From: an uncultured Clostridia bacterium
GTDB lineage: Bacteria > Bacillota > Clostridia > Christensenellales > Borkfalkiaceae
Assembly (NCBI GenBank): GCA_947629515.1
Contig: CANRDY010000013.1
Location: 1-36,728, forward strand
DNA length: 36,728 nucleotides
Reading direction: 5' to 3'
Of this stretch, positions 4,284 to 30,723 are shown in pieces; position 1 is the first letter of the stretch; each line of letters opens with the position of its first letter. A program made the translations under genes and the position numbers. A model generated the notes under the pieces. It ran no database searches and was not told where the DNA came from. It saw only the letters and a list, made by a program, of their open reading frames with translations.

Positions 4284-5492
4284 ATGGGCAAGATAGCCAT
4301 GACTACCCCCATAGTGGAGATGGACGGCGACGAAATGACCCGCGTTTTATGGCGTTGGGTCAAGGACATACTCATAACGCCCTACGTCGACCTTAAAACC
4401 GAGTACTACGACTTGGGGCTTAAAGAGCGCGATAAAACCTGCGACGAAGTTACCGTAAAGAGCGCGGAGGCAACAAAACGGTTGGGCGTTGCCGTAAAGT
4501 GCGCCACCATAACTCCCAACGCGCAGAGGGTGGAGGAGTACAACTTAAAGGAGATGTGGAAAAGCCCCAACGGCACTATACGGCGTATTCTCGACGGCAC
4601 GGTGTTCCGCGCGCCCATTCCCGTAAAGGGCATATCCCCCCTTGTGAGCGGCTGGAAAAAGCCGATAGTCATCGCCCGTCACGCCTACGGCGACATATAC
4701 AACGCCGTCGAGGACAGAGCGGGCGCGGGCGAGAGCGCGTACCTCGTAATAGAGGACGAAAGGGGGAAGGAAGTTCGCCGCAAGCTCATTCACGCCTTTA
4801 AGGGCGACGGTATAGTGCAGGGAGTGCACAACCTCGACGGGTCGGTCTCGTCGTTCGCCCGCAGCTGTTTCACCTACGCGCTCTCCGAAAAGTTGCCCGT
4901 GTGGTTCGGCGCAAAGGATACCATTTCAAAGATCTACGACCACCGATTTAAGGATATCTTTGCCGAAATTTACGAACGCGAATTTAAGGAACGCTTCGAA
5001 GAGGCGGGGATATACTACATGTACACCCTTATAGACGACGCCGTCGCGCGCATCGTTAAGAGCGAGGGGGGCGTTTTGTGGGTGTGTAAGAACTACGACG
5101 GCGACGTCATGAGCGACATGGTCGCCTCGGCATACGGCTCGTTGGGGCTGATGAGCTCGGTGCTCGTCTCGCCCGACGGGAACTTCGAGTACGAGGCGGC
5201 GCACGGTACGGTAACGCGCCACTATATGCGGCACTTAAAGGGCGAAAAGACTTCCACCAACCCCATAGCCACCATATGGGCGTGGACGGGCGCGCTCAGA
5301 AAGCGGGGCGAAAAGGACAACAATTCCGCCCTTTGCGAGTTGGCGGACAGGCTCGAACGGGCGTGTATCGATACCATCGAAAGCGGGTTTATGACGGGCG
5401 ATCTTTTGCCCCTTTTCCATCGCGACGGCGTGGAACCCGTTGTGTTGGGGAGCGAGGAGTTTTTACAAAAAATCGCCACTTTGCTGCCGTAA
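4284..5492 (+). CDS. icd: NADP-dependent isocitrate dehydrogenase
   Basis: Oxidative decarboxylation of isocitrate to 2-oxoglutarate with NADP; a cytosolic homodimer of the eukaryote-like (IDP, type II) subfamily. The 402-residue length is normal for that subfamily. Visible marks are the N-terminal [31 protein letters not shown] followed by [18 protein letters not shown] (isocitrate-binding Ser/Asn/Arg region), [27 protein letters not shown] with metal-binding Asp residues, and [10 protein letters not shown] with the NADP-contacting segment. The start ATG has an AAGGAG site about 8 bases upstream. It seems to be a single-gene unit, with its own promoter-like sequence and a repeat directly after the stop; no other TCA-cycle gene is nearby. 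It probably serves glutamate/2-oxoglutarate supply. Confidence 0.96.
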
Positions 5493-6070: not shown

Positions 6071-6109
6071 AAAAAATCAACTCCCCCCGCGCGGAGCGCG
6101 GGGGGAGTT
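6071..6109 (-). terminator. Rho-independent terminator of the twin-peptide unit
   Basis: A 14-bp perfect stem (6079-6092 with 6096-6109, a C6/G6-rich helix with a 3-base loop) is followed on the minus strand by TTGATTTTTTAA. It lies 15 bases after the stop of the second peptide gene. Confidence 0.9.
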
Positions 6110-6124
6110 CTTCAAATGCTCTTA

Positions 6125-6217
6125 TCAGCCTGCGCAGTTGAGTACGACGTAGGCAAGGGGCGAAACCCCGTAAATTTCGTTTATTTCTTCCAATTCGTTA
6201 AGTTTGTCGTAAACCAT
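6125..6217 (-). CDS. 30-residue peptide B, paralogue of peptide A
   Basis: A tiny gene of unknown function, 30 codons, reading MVYDKLNELEEI, then NEIYGVSPLAYV, then VLNCAG. An ideal ribosome site AGGAGG (6230-6225) lies 7 bases before the ATG. It matches peptide A (6468-6560) at 24 of 30 positions with no gap. Among the 24 identical residues, 10 codons differ only silently, which argues for selection on the protein. The first half is acidic and likely helical (LNELEE); the second is hydrophobic with Tyr, one Pro and a single Cys at position 28. There is no signal peptide and no membrane segment of full length. It lies downstream of peptide A in the same predicted transcript, just before a strong terminator. 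It does not look like an AgrD-type autoinducer, and no RiPP enzyme, transporter or toxin partner is nearby. Translation is likely; the role is unknown. Confidence 0.8.
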   Translation of the reverse strand: MVYDKLNELEEINEIYGVSPLAYVVLNCAG

Positions 6218-6251
6218 CTGAAAACCTCCTTGAAAAGATATTTTCATACGT

Positions 6252-6452
6252 TGCGGCAATAAAGCCGCACTTTTTCTCGCGGCGGGTAAATGCCGCTTAA
6301 CTTTCCGCGGCGGGTAAAGCCGCTCCTGTCCTCGCGGCGGGTAAATGCCGCTCTCCTTTCGGTCTCAACGCCGCTTTGCCGCGGCAGTCAAAACCGATTG
6401 CTTTGCGCGGTCGCCAAAGACCGCCCGTTTTCTTGCGGCGAGCCTCGCCGCA
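6252..6452 (-). repeat. Array of seven mini-hairpins between the two peptide genes
   Basis: Seven short inverted repeats in a row, mostly GCGGC with GCCGC around a 3-8 base loop: 6252-6269, 6279-6296, 6307-6323, 6334-6351, 6370-6385, 6407-6424 and 6434-6452. Centres are spaced about 27, 28, 28, 35, 38 and 28 bases. In the transcript (minus strand) the linkers are purine-rich. Hairpins 2 to 4 are near copies of each other, the others differ in stem and loop. The stretch has no ATG in the sense direction and seems non-coding. Confidence 0.8.
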
Positions 6453-6467
6453 CTTGTTCCGCCTTGA

Positions 6468-6560
6468 TTATCTCGCGCACGAAAGCGTAACGTAAGCCAA
6501 GGGCGAAACCCCGTAGATTTCGTTTCTTTCTTCGAGTTCATTCAAGTAATCGTAGAACAT
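6468..6560 (-). CDS. 30-residue peptide A, first gene of the twin-peptide unit
   Basis: A tiny gene of unknown function, 30 codons, reading MFYDYLNELEER, then NEIYGVSPLAYV, then TLSCAR. AGGAGG (6574-6569) lies 8 bases before the ATG, and a consensus-like promoter lies about 60 bases upstream, so it should be well expressed. It shares 24 of 30 residues with peptide B, including the core NEIYGVSPLAYV and the Cys at 28; the changes are at positions 2, 5, 12, 25, 27 and 30. Shape: an acidic helical N-half, then a turn at Gly-Val-Ser-Pro and a hydrophobic C-end. Possible roles, all speculative, are a signalling peptide, a small regulator of a larger protein, a toxin, or a leader peptide acting on the hairpin array after it. 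I know of no family to place it in. Confidence 0.8.
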   Translation of the reverse strand: MFYDYLNELEERNEIYGVSPLAYVTLSCAR

Positions 6561-6623
6561 TGCAAATACCTCCTTAAAAGTATTCAACTTAAAATCAAGT
6601 TCCTTTGCCTTGATTTCGGTTGC

Positions 6624-6652
6624 AGTATAGCATTAATTTTTTTGTTAGTCAA
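6624..6652 (-). promoter_or_regulatory. Strong sigma-A promoter of the twin-peptide unit
   Basis: On the minus strand, TTGACT (6652-6647), a 17-base spacer and TATACT (6629-6624). The expected transcript starts near 6617 and has a leader of about 57 bases before peptide A. The area upstream (6650-6790) is very AT-rich, as expected for an active promoter. Confidence 0.85.
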
Positions 6653-6845
6653 TAACATTTTAACATTTTTTAAAAATTTTATTTTTGTGAATTTCTAACA
6701 ATATTATATGTGAACACCTATAAAATATGTTAATTTTCCGTTAATGAACAAAAAAATTGTAAAAAATTTTCACGCTTAACAAAATCTTTTGTTAATTAAC
6801 ATTTTTCGCGCGGAAAGTGAAAACTGCTTTAACGGCTTTGTTAAA

Positions 6846-25039: not shown

Positions 25040-25116
25040 GGTTGATATAAAAGAGCATATTGCCGGTCGGCGCGGTACGACCGAAAGACAAAACAAATAA
25101 CTTACGGGAAAATTAT

Positions 25117-28100
25117 ATGAGCGCGAAGAATAAAATTGCCGAGAACATCGAGATAGAGGGGGAGCTTTTGAACTTCGTCTCGTACTCGACCTATTACAAC
25201 CGTCAACCGCTGTTCACCTCTTTCAAAATTTCGAACGGGGGCGACGACCTTGCTTCACTCAAAGCCGACATAAGCTGTTCGACTTCGCTTTTACTGCCCT
25301 CTTCATACGAGATAGAGGAGCTTGCGCGGGGGAGCAGCGTCGAGATAGAGCCGAACGACATTCTCAACCCCAAGTACCTCGCCGAGCTTGAAAAGCCCGA
25401 GGAGTGCACCGTTACCGTCTCCATATCGTGCGGGAAGAACGTGCTTTGCACCCTCTCCGCGCAGGTGAGCGCGCTGCCCGTCGACTGCTGGGCGGGGCTT
25501 TCGGGCAACGCCGAGTCGCTCGCGCCCTTCGTCCGCCCCAAGCTCGCCGACTGCCAGAAGATTTTGGCGGAAGCGGGGTTACAGCTGAGAACGTGGGGAT
25601 ATTCCTCGGAGTTCACGGGCTATGCTGGCAACGACAAAAACGCCGTGCGGAGCGCGGCGGCGGCTGTTTTTGCGGCGTTGAGGCGGCAGAACCTCGAAAG
25701 GGAAGAGACGCCCGACCTTACGGCGGTCAACTGCATAGGCGGCATAGCGGGCATTTTGCAGAGGGGAAGCGCGAACGCCGCCGAGGCGGCTTTGTTTGCG
25801 GCAAGCTGCTTCGAAGCGGTCAGACTGCACCCCCTCATTCTCATAGGCAAAAAGTTTGCAGGCGTGGGAGTATGGCTTTACGAAAGCTGTTTTTCGACGT
25901 CCGTGCAAGACGATATGCTGCTCGTTGAAAAGTACACCGCGGAGGGCGTAAACAACATAGCCGTGTTTGACGCGGGCGACCTCTTCGCCCACAAAAACGC
26001 CAGCTATTCGACGAGCGAAGAACACGCCCGCGGGCTGTTGCAGAGCGGGGCGTTCGAGGCGTGCGTCGACATTCGCCGTTGCAGGATAGGCGGCATCTTC
26101 CCCCTGCCCATAAAGGTAAAGACGGGCGCGGGGTACGAGCTGTTGGGCGAGGAACAGTTCTCCATAGAGGCAAAGCCCGGCGAGCTGTCGTTCATTCCCG
26201 AGTACTCTTCCGAAAAGAATATCTCAAAGGAAAAGACGTGGCAGCGCAGGCTTTTGGACCTTTCCTTAAAAAACAACTTGCTCAATTTCAGATACGCGCG
26301 CGATTGCCTGAGGATATACTCCAACGGGCTTGCGGCTTTTGTGGAAAAGCTCGAAAAGAGGGATAGCTTTTGGCTCTTGCCCGCAGACGGCAAAGAGGAC
26401 GCGCCATTCGGCGGCGATTACCAGAAAAAGACGGCGGAGCTGTTCGGAATGGAGCTTGACGGCGGCAAGATGAGATGCCCCAAGAGCGCGGGGGAGATAG
26501 CCGAAATTTCGCAGAACCTCATTCGCAAGGCGCGTTCCGCCGAAGAGGAGACGGGCGCAAAGACGCTCTTTTTGGCGGCGGGCTTTCTGAAGTGGAAGCG
26601 CGAGGGCGAAAAGGACGAAAAGTTCGCCCCCCTCTCGCTTGCGCCCGTAACGTTAAAGCGCGCAAAGACCAAGGGCATAGCCACCTCGTTCGGCGAGGGG
26701 TTCGAGGTAAACACCACACTGCTCGAATTTCTGTATCAGGAGTTCGGCGTGGACATGCGCGGGCTTGAGGGCAAAAATCTCACCCCCGCGGAGATCGCGG
26801 CGGCGTTCAGAAAGCAAGCCGCTTCCATGGACGGGTGGTACGTCTACGACGACTTATATATAGCCCAGTTCACCTTTGCGCGTTACGCCATGTGGGCGGA
26901 CGTGAAGAACCATATAAAGGCGTACCGCTCCAACCCGCTCGTCGAAAGCCTTATAACCAACTCCAACAAGTTGCAGGGCAACAAGCTCTCCGCCCCCAAA
27001 GAGGACGACTGTCCCTTCGAGGACGTGCTTTTGCCCCTGCCCTCCGACAGCGCGCAGTTTTCGGCGATCGCCGAGGCGGCGAACGGCTCTACCTTTGTGT
27101 TGCACGGTCCGCCCGGCACGGGCAAGAGTCAGACCATAGCCAACATAATAGCCAACGCGGCGGCTCAGGGCAAGCGCGTGCTGTTCGTCGCAGAAAAACA
27201 GGCGGCGTTGCAGGTTGTTAAAAAGCGGCTCACGGGCATAGGCATAGGCGATTTCTGTCTCGAACTTCACTCGGGCAAGACGGCGGACAAGGGGCAGATA
27301 GTGCAGAATATCGAAAACACCCTCGCCCTCGCCCGCACGGCGGAGAGCGGCAGATTCGACGAAACGGCGAAAAAGCTCGACGCCCTGCGCGAACGCCTCG
27401 GCGCGCCCCTTGCCGCGCTCCACCAAAAGCGCAAGCTGGGGATATCGGTATACGAGGGCATACTCCAATGCTTTGCCAACGCCTCCGCGCCCGAACTTCT
27501 CGACATCGAAAGCGCGTTTTACGACGGGCTTACCGCAGAAAAACTCGCCGAGTACGAGAGCATGCTCGTCACCGTACAGGCGGCGGCAAAGGAGTGCGGC
27601 GGGGTGTACCGTTCGCCCTTTGCCGAGGTCCGCTTAACGTCCGCCGACGGCGGCGCGCTCGCCGCGGCGGTGTGCGCGGCGGAAGTTGTGCTCGCAGAGC
27701 TTAAACACCTCAAAAATTATCTGGGGCTTTTGCTCGACACATTCAGGCAAAAGGTCAGCAAATTCACCCGCAAAAAGCTCGAAAACTCAATACGTATCGC
27801 AAATATCTTAAAAGACGGCTCTCTCAACGGGTTCTTCACATGCGACAAGGCGCAGTTTTACGCCTTTTACAACGCCTCGGTGAGGTACGACAGGGAGACG
27901 GCAAAATGGCTGAGCTTTTTCAAAACCCTTCCCGACCTCGGCAAGTACGGCGAAACGCTCGGCGACGAGCTTGAAAACTGGGGCGAAAATTACCGCTCCT
28001 CACGCACGGTTCTGCAAGTCATAAAGCGCATAAACAGATGCGGGCGCGAACAGCTCAAAGAGCGCGAAGAGTTGGGCTGGATAAAGTGCGCATACGAAAT

Positions 28101-30723
28101 AGAGCGCGCACGGGCGGAAATACTCAAAAACACCGAGCTTTCGCGCGCGTTTACGGGCTTCGGCGGCATAAACGAGAAGAAGAGGGCGGACTTCATGCGC
28201 CCGCTCTACGAGCTTCATTCGCTCTGCGCCGAGACCTTTATGGACTACAACGCCGACTCGTTCAACAGCGTGTGCGCGGACGCGGCGGGCGGCGCGCTGA
28301 AGCCCCTTATCCATGGATATATTTCGGCGGGGAACGCGTTTATAAAGAGCGCGGAAGCCTACCTTAAAGCCATAAAAGCCGAAAAGGACGTCTTTGCCGA
28401 CGCGGATATATTCGAGGTGTATTCCTCGAAGTGCACCGCACTCATCGAAAACGCCGATATGCTCCCCGCGTGGTGTCTTTACAAGGCTACCGCCAAAAAG
28501 CTCAACGAGTGCGGGCTTACCTTTATAACCGACGCAATGGAGAGGGGAAGGATCTCTTCCACTCAGATTCTCTCCTCATTCAGAAAGAACGTCTACCGCA
28601 ACTTTGTGCAGACCAATATCCCCGCCGACAGCGAGCTTGCGGCTTTTTCGGCAAACGTCGCCGAGGAAAACGCCGCGGAACTTACGCGCCTTGTCGAGGA
28701 ATTTACCGCCCACTCGCGCGAGAGAGTGCGCTCGATTTTAATTTCCCGTCTGCCCGCCGAGGACACCGAAGGCTCGCTCGCCCTCGAACTCATGGCGTTC
28801 AAACGTCAGACCAAGGGGGGAATGAAGAACCTCGGACTTCGCGCTCTCTTCTCCGAAATCCCGGGGCTTTTGAAGGTAGTCGCGCCGTGCATGCTCATGA
28901 GTCCCGCCACCGTATCGCAGTTTTTGCCGCCCGAGGCGGGCTTCTTCGACATTGTGATTTTCGACGAGGCTTCGCAGATACCCACGTGCGAGGCGGTGTG
29001 CTCGCTTGCAAGGGCGAAGAGCGCGGTGATAGTCGGCGATCCAAAGCAGATGCCGCCCACGTCCTTTTTCGCCTTTACGGGCGGCGACGACGAAAACCCC
29101 GAAGCCGAGGACATGGAGTCCGTGCTCGAGGATTGCTTAGCCCTCGGAATACCCGAAAAGCACCTCGTATGGCACTACCGCTCCAAACACGAAAGCCTTA
29201 TCGCCTTTTCGAACGCCGAATACTATTCGAGCAGGCTGTGCACATTCCCCTCGCCCGACGAGGGCGACAGCAAAGTGCGCTTTAAGTACGTCGCCGACGG
29301 CGTGTACGACAGAGGGGCTTCCAAGTGCAACCGCCGCGAAGCCGAAGAGCTTGTGGCGGAGACCGTAAAACGCCTTAAAAGCGGCAGTACTTCGAGCATA
29401 GGCATAGTCACTTTCAGCACGCCCCAGCAGATACTCGTCGAGCGGCTTCTTTCAAAGGAGATAGCAAAGGCGGGGCTTGAAGAGCGGGCGTACTCGGGCG
29501 AAGAGCCGCTGTTTATAAAGAACCTCGAAAACGTGCAGGGCGACGAGCGCGACGTAATACTCTTTTCGGTGTGCTACGGACCCGACTCCGAGGGTCGTAT
29601 ATCCCTCAACTTCGGACCTTTGAACCAGTTTGGGGGATGGCGCAGGCTCAACGTCGCCGTCTCCCGCGCAAGGGAAGAGATGGTGGTGTTCTCCTCTATG
29701 CGCTATCCCGTCATCGATCTCTCGCGCACGACGTCGCGCGGGGTCGCGGGGCTGAGGGACTTTCTGGAGTTTGCCGAAAAGGGCAGACCGGGCGTCGCCG
29801 TAAAAAATTCCGACATAGTGATAAACCGCCGCTCGATAGGCAAATACGTCGCAAAGGAGCTTGCCGCTTACGGCTACGAGTCGAGGAGCGATCTGGGCTA
29901 TTCTGATTTCAGAATAGACTGCGCCGTGTGCGACCCCGCCGACAAAGACAGGTATATCCTCGCAATTCTCTGCGACGGTTCCACGCAGTTCTCGGTAAAG
30001 GATCGAACGGTAATGCAGGCGCAGACCTTAAAGCGGAGCAACTGGAACGTTATCCGCGTGTATTCGATAAACTTCTTCAACAACCCCAAGAGGGAGATAA
30101 AGAAGATAAAGGATATGCTCGACAAACTGACGGGCGCGGCAAAGGAAAAGGAGGGCAAAGACCCTTACGCCAAGCCCTATCGCGCCGTAAAGCGGGAAGT
30201 CACCCCCGCCGGGAGCGACGAAATACTTTCGGGCAGTCTCGATACCGAGCTTATAAAGACGATTAAGGCGGTAGTATCCGCCGAAGAACCCATCTCCGTG
30301 CAGTTTTTGATAAAGCGCACGCTCGCGCTGTTCGGGATAGCAAAATACGGCGTTCGCCTCGAAAGCAAGCTAAAAGAACTCATCGCAAAGTGCGCGTTCC
30401 TCTCCGAGGACATAGGCGGCAACACCTATCTCTTCCGCACGTCAAAGGCGGCGGACTTCACAAAGTACCGCGTCGAAGAGGAGGGAACGCTCAGAACGCA
30501 GGACGGCGACTACACCCCGTACGACGTAATAGCCGCCGCGCGTTCCGTGCTCTTGGGCAAGGTGAGCGCGTACTTCGACGAGCTTATCCCCGCCGTGCTC
30601 AAAAAGCTGCGCGTGCCGCGCGCCACCGAAAAACTGATCGCGTTTGCGGGCGCGTGCGTCGACGAGGGCGTCCGCCGCGGGCTGTTCATTAAGAGCGTTT
30701 CCGACCGCGTTTCGCTCGCGTAA
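25117..30723 (+). CDS. Giant DUF4011/SF1 helicase/nuclease-like protein, possible anti-phage effector
   Basis: An 1868-residue cytosolic protein. Order of parts: a beta-rich N-terminal region (1-365, unknown); the DUF4011 signature WQRRLLDLSLKNNLLNF near 375; UvrD/Upf1-like SF1 helicase with Walker A GPPGTGKSQT near 665, DEASQIPTCE near 1282, GDPKQMPPTS near 1305, VQGDERDVI near 1471 and RRLNVAVSRAREE near 1508; a Vsr/MTES-like nuclease region (1570-1665) with YSDFRIDCAV and AILCDG; and a DUF3320-like end (from about 1720). In related nuclease domains the second motif usually reads IECDG, so the Glu is Leu here and the following His is lacking; cutting activity may be lost. Proteins of this layout have been reported in anti-phage screens (Hhe-type, from memory). 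ATG 25117 is chosen over an upstream TTG at 25060. It is a single gene with its own promoter. Confidence 0.9.
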   Translation: MSAKNKIAENIEIEGELLNFVSYSTYYNRQPLFTSFKISNGGDDLASLKADISCSTSLLLPSSYEIEELARGSSVEIEPNDILNPKYLAELEKPEECTVTVSISCGKNVLCTLSAQVSALPVDCWAGLSGNAESLAPFVRPKLADCQKILAEAGLQLRTWGYSSEFTGYAGNDKNAVRSAAAAVFAALRRQNLEREETPDLTAVNCIGGIAGILQRGSANAAEAALFAASCFEAVRLHPLILIGKKFAGVGVWLYESCFSTSVQDDMLLVEKYTAEGVNNIAVFDAGDLFAHKNASYSTSEEHARGLLQSGAFEACVDIRRCRIGGIFPLPIKVKTGAGYELLGEEQFSIEAKPGELSFIPEYSSEKNISKEKTWQRRLLDLSLKNNLLNFRYARDCLRIYSNGLAAFVEKLEKRDSFWLLPADGKEDAPFGGDYQKKTAELFGMELDGGKMRCPKSAGEIAEISQNLIRKARSAEEETGAKTLFLAAGFLKWKREGEKDEKFAPLSLAPVTLKRAKTKGIATSFGEGFEVNTTLLEFLYQEFGVDMRGLEGKNLTPAEIAAAFRKQAASMDGWYVYDDLYIAQFTFARYAMWADVKNHIKAYRSNPLVESLITNSNKLQGNKLSAPKEDDCPFEDVLLPLPSDSAQFSAIAEAANGSTFVLHGPPGTGKSQTIANIIANAAAQGKRVLFVAEKQAALQVVKKRLTGIGIGDFCLELHSGKTADKGQIVQNIENTLALARTAESGRFDETAKKLDALRERLGAPLAALHQKRKLGISVYEGILQCFANASAPELLDIESAFYDGLTAEKLAEYESMLVTVQAAAKECGGVYRSPFAEVRLTSADGGALAAAVCAAEVVLAELKHLKNYLGLLLDTFRQKVSKFTRKKLENSIRIANILKDGSLNGFFTCDKAQFYAFYNASVRYDRETAKWLSFFKTLPDLGKYGETLGDELENWGENYRSSRTVLQVIKRINRCGREQLKEREELGWIKCAYEIERARAEILKNTELSRAFTGFGGINEKKRADFMRPLYELHSLCAETFMDYNADSFNSVCADAAGGALKPLIHGYISAGNAFIKSAEAYLKAIKAEKDVFADADIFEVYSSKCTALIENADMLPAWCLYKATAKKLNECGLTFITDAMERGRISSTQILSSFRKNVYRNFVQTNIPADSELAAFSANVAEENAAELTRLVEEFTAHSRERVRSILISRLPAEDTEGSLALELMAFKRQTKGGMKNLGLRALFSEIPGLLKVVAPCMLMSPATVSQFLPPEAGFFDIVIFDEASQIPTCEAVCSLARAKSAVIVGDPKQMPPTSFFAFTGGDDENPEAEDMESVLEDCLALGIPEKHLVWHYRSKHESLIAFSNAEYYSSRLCTFPSPDEGDSKVRFKYVADGVYDRGASKCNRREAEELVAETVKRLKSGSTSSIGIVTFSTPQQILVERLLSKEIAKAGLEERAYSGEEPLFIKNLENVQGDERDVILFSVCYGPDSEGRISLNFGPLNQFGGWRRLNVAVSRAREEMVVFSSMRYPVIDLSRTTSRGVAGLRDFLEFAEKGRPGVAVKNSDIVINRRSIGKYVAKELAAYGYESRSDLGYSDFRIDCAVCDPADKDRYILAILCDGSTQFSVKDRTVMQAQTLKRSNWNVIRVYSINFFNNPKREIKKIKDMLDKLTGAAKEKEGKDPYAKPYRAVKREVTPAGSDEILSGSLDTELIKTIKAVVSAEEPISVQFLIKRTLALFGIAKYGVRLESKLKELIAKCAFLSEDIGGNTYLFRTSKAADFTKYRVEEEGTLRTQDGDYTPYDVIAAARSVLLGKVSAYFDELIPAVLKKLRVPRATEKLIAFAGACVDEGVRRGLFIKSVSDRVSLA

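Follow-up and report, generated by a model that had tools for sequence, protein, structure and literature searches.

A candidate constant promoter module with variable micro-peptide cargo in Candidatus Coproplasma and a sister genus

Genome comparison indicates that Candidatus Coproplasma and a sister genus carry a constant cis-regulatory module with variable micro-peptide cargo, because 13 of the 21 Coproplasma genomes lacking peptide family A keep the module before other mini-protein genes, and four sister-genus genomes carry it with other peptides as well. Family A is represented by two genes in the window, which is the whole 36,728-nucleotide stretch of DNA analysed here. We propose, with a probability of roughly 0.4, that a repressible promoter module of about 130 bp precedes operons of one to six mini-protein genes whose products bind a conserved cell partner. 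More broadly, this phased operator, promoter and 5' hairpin module, which is in register across at least two genera, may be a constant switch with variable cargo, that is, a platform where genes of 16 to 48 codons arise, multiply, swap and persist, each species filling the inducible slot; we regard this as close to an even chance. To our knowledge, micro-proteins are usually discovered singly, with their control unknown.

The window's own unit lies on the minus strand. An initial annotation of this DNA had proposed, at 6071-6652, a dedicated unit for paralogous micro-peptides with a consensus-like promoter, two 30-codon genes, each with AGGAGG 7-8 bases before ATG, and a strong terminator, and all these parts are present. 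The promoter, TTGACT-17-(TGC)TATACT, in which TG precedes the second hexamer, occupies 6624..6652 (read 6652-6624). Peptide gene 1 (6468..6560, read 6560-6468, stop included) encodes MFYDYLNELEERNEIYGVSPLAYVTLSCAR, and peptide gene 2 (6125..6217, read 6217-6125, stop included) encodes MVYDKLNELEEINEIYGVSPLAYVVLNCAG. Both translated ORFs encode 30 aa and are assigned to family A on the basis of the ORF, its relatives and selection. Their Shine-Dalgarno sites, both AGGAGG, are at 6569..6574, 8 bases before the ATG, and at 6225..6230, 7 bases before it. The intrinsic terminator (6072..6109) consists of a 14-bp stem (6109-6079) and a T run. Of their 30 residues the two peptides share 24, and 10 of these 24 are encoded by different codons, as had been counted. 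The proposed interval does contain the unit, but its extent was too small, as conserved regulatory sequence runs on to ~6738. Similarly, a dedicated unit for paralogous micro-peptides is borne out by the sequence and by relatives, but this description was too narrow; the unit is one instance of a wider operon type. In the spacer between the peptide genes, repeated GC hairpins (GCGGCGGGTAAATGCCGC) were recognized at 6260..6360 (minus strand) by reading of sequence and fold. By eye, similar GC hairpins stand ahead of the first A gene's ribosome site at L047, L048, L049 and L052. The unit is flanked by an M23-peptidase gene (7696-7043, minus strand, PF01551) and an isocitrate/isopropylmalate dehydrogenase-type gene (4284-5492, plus strand, PF00180). 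Elsewhere in the window, an open frame of 1887 codons extends over 25060-30723 on the plus strand.

The peptides had been said to match no known class, and scans of these two peptides agree: neither matches Pfam or NCBIfam at E<=1 (0 families in each database). Rfam gave 0 matches at the gathering threshold in the window, and around the locus only sub-threshold ones (best E 0.31). None of the three databases has a family that matches the window's parts, and judging from the tests made here, no known family appears to include the peptides as members. Among titles and beginnings of abstracts in one open library, we found nothing of this kind and none naming Candidatus Coproplasma with small proteins, which is not proof of absence.

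Family A follows the pattern xIYxxLNxLDE..YGVSPLSYVxLxCAR. Most members start with M-x-IYD/E-x-LNxLDE and end with GVSPLSYV-x-L-x-CAR. A single-peptide search of 61 genomes gave matches in 30, of which 29 are in the same genus (37 genus genomes searched); the 30th match (E 0.6) sits in a long frame and was rejected. The search in related genomes that the initial annotation had suggested revealed related ORFs, when made with an alignment of 33 relatives, in 72 of the 93 genomes of the window's genus, Candidatus Coproplasma. A was present in 48 of the 61 high-quality genus genomes, with 1 to 5 matches per genome. No convincing A member was found outside the genus among 396 order genomes. Weak matches (E<=0.1) in 16 genomes of other genera were not accepted as relatives: the nine that were read out had no start codon, matched the Shine-Dalgarno sequence at 4 of 6 positions at best or lay within a large protein, and the other seven were long frames or had an internal stop, as judged from the search table alone. 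At L084 (G304), the 26-residue open frame INSIAVSPLIFVLLNCSSRQVFCQHN has an A-like tail and no start codon in reach; it is probably due to chance. Nothing of family A was found in viruses, phages and plasmids, a phage/plasmid search with peptide 1 was also negative, and one 44-residue query against a broad protein database returned the window's own peptide as its sole match.

The A peptides are conserved as proteins. Their pN/pS was 0.22 (179 same-length pairs with 72-97% DNA identity, 94 distinct ORFs), compared with 1.73 and 1.65 in shifted-frame controls, and changes at codon positions 1, 2 and 3 numbered 708, 549 and 2262. The low ratio, the contrast with shifted frames and the third-position excess, a bias that had been suggested as a check, uphold the earlier claim that the protein and not the DNA alone is conserved. 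That the genes are chance ORFs or an assembly artefact is hardly credible: the ORFs are very short and every genome used was assembled from a mixed sample or is a draft of similar kind, but the synonymous bias, the homologues in 72 of 93 genomes and the shared module contradict such an origin. In the 33-row A alignment, Y3 and Y23 are invariant, and V18, P20, L21, L26 and C28 are kept at >=90%; in a 38-row alignment, which was a selection for folding, Y3, L21, Y23, V24, L26 and C28 are invariant. The C-terminal half contains most of the best-kept positions. AF2 predicted helices at residues 2-12 and 20-28 with low to modest confidence (pLDDT 71, pTM 0.28), and the mean net charge of the family is -3.5. 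In the L046-L058 clade, the two A copies are distinct types (MDIYEKLNQIDDE... and MIEIYEEIAQLDS...), each maintained across species. Since the two types stay separate between species, these paralogues are not homogenised.

The module was first seen by reading the DNA before the first A gene of each locus, where one promoter was found to recur. The window copy lies at 6610..6738 on the minus strand and scores 86.3 bits (E 1.8e-24) with model R1, which was built from a 62-locus alignment with this copy as one of its rows. Counted from the first -35 base, sixty-five modules align gap-free between about -84 and +28, and MAFFT places a small gap in a few rows. The shared columns are TTaACA at -81, TTAT at -71, CATA at -58, TGTTA-N5-TAACA at -48 to -34, an A/T tract at -23 to -11, TGTTA-TTGAC-TAACA at -5 to +9 and TGcTATACT at +20. 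In the window, also on the minus strand, the upstream half-site TTAACA (columns -81 to -76 of the 65 modules) is at 6728..6733, 42 bp above the next box. The upstream dyad at 6686..6700 reads TGTTA-GAAAT-TCACA, where the genus consensus is TGTTA-N5-TAACA. The A/T tract, which we take to resemble a promoter UP element, is at 6663..6675, and the dyad TGTTA-TTGAC-TAACA lies over the -35 at 6643..6657. The three TAACA boxes are spaced by 42 and 43 bp, about four helical turns, and the second and third of them are dyad halves. Mean pairwise identity over 132 nt of 62 non-redundant modules is 69% (48-88%), indicating that the boxes and their spacing are constant and single bases are not. Five of 70 candidate modules (L135, L139, L156, L168, L181) were excluded for absence of the upstream columns. 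Columns above -5 were used solely for dropping those five, columns -5 to +28 are conserved by construction, and the upstream-dyad columns -48 to -34 played no part in finding loci. The dyad overlapping the -35 suggests repression, and the near-consensus hexamers, extended -10 and A/T tract suggest high output on release.

The core TTGACTAACA-N10-TGCTATACT occurs as one exact copy in the window's genome. The exact pattern TTGACTRACA-N10-TGNTATACT was present in 9 of 396 order genomes, eight of them of the window's genus; the ninth (G387, L168; another family) is without upstream boxes and was rejected. At 42 of the 43 named loci the module lies upstream of A, with matrix scores of 99 to 147 against -33.5 for the best non-module site anchored on TTG in these loci, both strands considered; the matrix was partly built from the scored A loci, and its training modules score 34 to 150. 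At the sole A locus without the module, the sequence starts 173 nt before the A gene. When 350 family genomes were searched with the 132-nt model, the matches listed at E<=1e-3 included 70/74 same-genus genomes, and 66 same-genus genomes match below 1e-10. Among the 70, the weak matches in G260 and G021 proved false on reading. The A-less genomes with the module and other peptides are G003, G036, G018, G449, G429, G442, G206, G194, G463, G465, G033, G447 and G011. Eight of the 21 A-less genomes are without a confirmed module: in G431, G260, G025, G438, G439 and G021 the candidate place was read and is no module, and G434 and G022 were outside the reading. The four sister-genus carriers (G251, 5.6e-18; G168, 9.5e-14; G602, 3.2e-8; G721, 5.6e-8) were upheld on reading. 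At E<=1e-6 over 219 order genomes, the module was seen in no genera but the window's own and this sister genus.

Verdicts on weak model matches cover only those that were read, a minority. L233, L234 and L250 (E 3e-8 to 5e-7) are true carriers of J or A peptides. L235, L245, L246, L248 and L249 (E ~1e-4 to 5e-8) are ordinary AT-rich promoters with no dyads, and no known mini-protein family follows them; at L249, a 19-codon ORF begins 276 nt on. At L248 and L249 (G623 and G607; genus g29), AT-tract promoters of the form TTGACAAACA...TGCTATAAT precede a long stretch in which no gene is obvious. A second module was observed elsewhere in some genomes, e.g. G005, G430, G444, G450, G458, G006, G013 and G017. 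The A loci occupy a few chromosomal settings: after an M23-peptidase gene, after an adenine-deaminase-like gene, or between an iron-alcohol-dehydrogenase-like gene and a small HTH gene, several of these neighbours being named by eye and not by profile matches. The unit is therefore autonomous. Because the control element is common to loci whose proteins differ, the module can be used as a search handle; it revealed mini-protein genes where the peptide search found nothing.

Sixty-four of the 65 modules are followed by 1 to 6 small ORFs that have ribosome sites and lie ahead of any terminator, and 41 of these 64 by at least two. The ORF rule included length limits of 18-60 and a Shine-Dalgarno match, and some listed ORFs may not be genes (L005 MRKHT..., L137 MEAHC...). 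The 65th module, L171, has a GTG-started ORF. Cargo proteins span 16 to 48 residues, and both the number of peptides and the families under the module differ between species. Besides A, these are, in this analysis's own lettering, family B (MIFxELL..MATLPLVYLALTNARN), family D (MDMYxNLTQTC...), family E (...TLLWYLLSVNR), family F (...MATWSAQGSS...), family G (MFIAKLLGNMYxNIERRC..LKTTARFYLALSNI), and families C, H and others, which also occur beside A under the module. At L046 (7484-7927), and also at L107, three tandem 30-residue Cys peptides (MDMYxNLTQTC...) precede two A genes in one operon. Seven non-A families gave pN/pS of 0.20-0.50, from 2-10 sequences each, with synonymous sites near saturation and no frame control. 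Twenty-seven representatives of the other types, picked by hand and partly akin to one another, were compared with an A-tail profile: six (B, B2, G2, E, M, O) match at shuffle p<0.01, and 21, the main G sequence included, do not. The cargo is therefore probably a mixture of related and unrelated peptides.

In the sister genus, the module precedes the 16-17-residue cationic J peptides (MRFIQWLRYVRSLMHA and kin), of which one genome has two copies. Three Coproplasma genomes have J relatives of 21-22 residues downstream of the module. The J profile found 8 genes among 341 family genomes at E below 1e-8, each beside a module; all 8 are seeds, so the profile adds no new member. Three weaker J matches were rejected: G383 has no start, in G636 the pattern lies within another frame, and G595 shows nothing.

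In 54 of the 65 modules, the ORFs are followed by a terminator. This bears on the idea that the peptides are nascent-chain leaders, which would control a downstream gene by stalling ribosomes. Concentration of the best-kept A positions in the C-terminal half would suit such leaders, but transcription would end after the ORFs in those modules, and the downstream gene varies by setting and is often on the other strand. We regard leader peptides as highly improbable.

A hairpin is computed at the 5' end of the predicted mRNA, at 6591..6617 on the minus strand of the window (fold z -2.3 for this copy). Over the 65 modules, the first 48 nt have a mean z of -1.7 versus -0.17 for a control stretch inside the unit. 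The first pair is within about 10-11 nt of the start in 61 of 65 modules, a count without its own control. The 5' arm of the usual start stem is GAAATCNGG or GCAATCNGG, and some loci with a very short leader (L029, L040, L128) have no stable 5' hairpin. Pair types exchange between loci, e.g. 24 A-U versus 23 G-C at one position, in counts that lean towards pairing because they come from single-sequence folds. The 5' hairpin and AGGAGG together suggest a stable, well translated message. The hairpin, the tandem copies and the strong control would also fit a type I toxin or dual-function RNA, in which the structured transcript is active or regulated and the peptide is a toxin or by-product. However, a transmembrane-like stretch, taken as a 19-residue mean hydropathy above 1.6, was found in 0 of 132 peptides (maximum 1.27); over 15 residues, 2 of 91 A peptides exceeded 1.6. 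For an antisense RNA, a scan limited to the consensus detected no sigma-70-like site on the plus strand, opposite the unit, within 6071-6652. Rfam gave no match at the gathering score. We consider a toxin or RNA of this type quite improbable.

The explanation we favour, partner binding under a repressible module, would work as follows. The promoter is likely kept off by a repressor and is predicted to be very strong after release. The dyad over the -35 is the putative repressor site, and the dyad 43 bp upstream, at about four helical turns, may help to hold the repressor complex. Release from the repressor would give a burst of short, usually hairpin-capped and well translated mRNA, so that the module is likely a switch that allows a burst of mini-proteins on a putative signal. 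The A peptides may form two short helices, as predicted at 2-12 and 20-28, and the second helix with the Cys-Ala-Arg tail may dock on a putative partner, since most of the best-kept A positions fall there. Other peptide families, some sharing the tail, would replace A in some species and may do a similar job. Intracellular partner binding seems more likely than lysis, in view of the well-kept second helix and CAR tail, the acidic charge, and the scarcity of membrane or export features (0 of 132 peptides transmembrane-like and, by a crude rule, 1 of 132 with a Sec-like start). In our ranking of functions, inducible partner-binding mini-proteins would come first, with secreted membrane-active peptides or pheromones as alternatives. 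Sda-type mini-proteins are helical hairpins that inhibit a cellular target. The A peptides may be likened to them by predicted fold, as two short helices with conserved positions; they differ in that Sda-type proteins come from a single gene and the A peptides from a variable operon.

The J peptides speak against partner binding, as they look more membrane-active. They are cationic and amphipathic, with hydrophobic moments of 0.60-0.97; the means are 0.50 for A and 0.58 for other peptides, with no control set. It is possible, if rather doubtful, that the cargo as a whole consists of leaderless peptides that leave the cell through an exporter encoded elsewhere and act on membranes, much like phenol-soluble modulins or multi-peptide leaderless bacteriocins. 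Tandem short genes each with a ribosome site, one promoter with cargo varying by species, and the nature of the J peptides are all consistent with such peptides, which require no linked partner gene. On the other hand, the net charge of A is acidic on average, and its strong purifying selection and well-kept tail are unlike arms-race peptides. Nor was an exporter or immunity gene noticed beside the loci, where neighbours were mostly named by eye. No linked modification enzyme, of the kind expected for RiPP precursors, was noticed by eye among neighbours within ~8 kb, nor did Pfam/NCBIfam scans of the window's nearby genes show one.

Phenol-soluble modulins of staphylococci are encoded by tandem, very short leaderless genes with their own ribosome sites under one tightly controlled promoter, with an unlinked exporter. 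By analogy, short leaderless peptide operons of this kind may be nearest in function to the units described here, with which they share the tandem leaderless genes, the ribosome sites, the one promoter and the lack of a linked exporter. The likeness concerns gene layout; A is acidic with a C-terminal Cys-Ala-Arg tail, and the bacterial group is different. What is distinct here is that the control module is shared where the products are not. Multi-peptide leaderless bacteriocins are mostly cationic and are linked to transport or immunity genes. They share tandem-encoded leaderless peptides of 30-45 residues with our units but differ in the linked transport or immunity genes, none of which were noticed here. 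As a natural series in which one inducible slot holds different micro-proteins, the units allow direct tests of how very small genes arise and turn over.

No single regulator gene adjoins all loci. The HTH gene c17 is in 9 of 43 named loci, and a MocR-like gene is near 20 of the 43, mostly convergent; the latter is not beside the window's unit. On the tests made, neither of these genes, nor the LacI gene found at several second loci, fits as the module's regulator. If autoregulation is assumed, the MocR-like gene is not the module regulator, because 0 of its 20 own upstream regions have the dyad or TAACA pairs at 42-43 bp. These results bear on whether the peptides are precursors of signalling pheromones whose cytoplasmic receptor would bind the TGTTA-N5-TAACA dyads as a regulator and so cause autoinduction. 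Phased dyads in a peptide-gene promoter and a C-terminal tail common to some families point to such a circuit, but no one regulator gene accompanies the loci, the frequent MocR-like neighbour lacks the boxes upstream of itself, and the N-termini are not export signals by the crude rule above. We find pheromone precursors unlikely. For the favoured reading, in which a repressor would hold the module, the 130-bp module is a concrete bait for finding the regulator.

The module's TGTKA-N5-TAACA shares half-sites and spacing with the lac O1 core, and several second loci follow a LacI-family gene. At L169, L176, L236, L237 and L238 (in G444, G442, G006, G013 and G017, respectively), the second-locus module comes immediately after the end of such a gene, which shares 69-73% identity with the G442 copy. 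The resemblance to lac-type operators stops at the regulator: of 35 genomes searched at E<=1e-30, 11 have a match to the LacI gene, in one case at just 40% identity, and 24, the window's own genome included, have none, which rejects LacI as general regulator. The dyad is also not the mark of a wide regulon, because a count of TGTTA-N5-TAACA in 7 genomes gave 22 occurrences, of which 6 are within the module, against 15 for the reversed control. The same LacI-family gene was observed with no module in the next 340-520 nt in G028, G001, G472, G016 and G008. Finally, a recurrent pair, GGTATTAT ... ATAATACC, was seen by eye upstream of the MocR-like gene in L032, L034, L040, L059, L063, L069 and others, and this pair is possibly the MocR-like gene's own operator.
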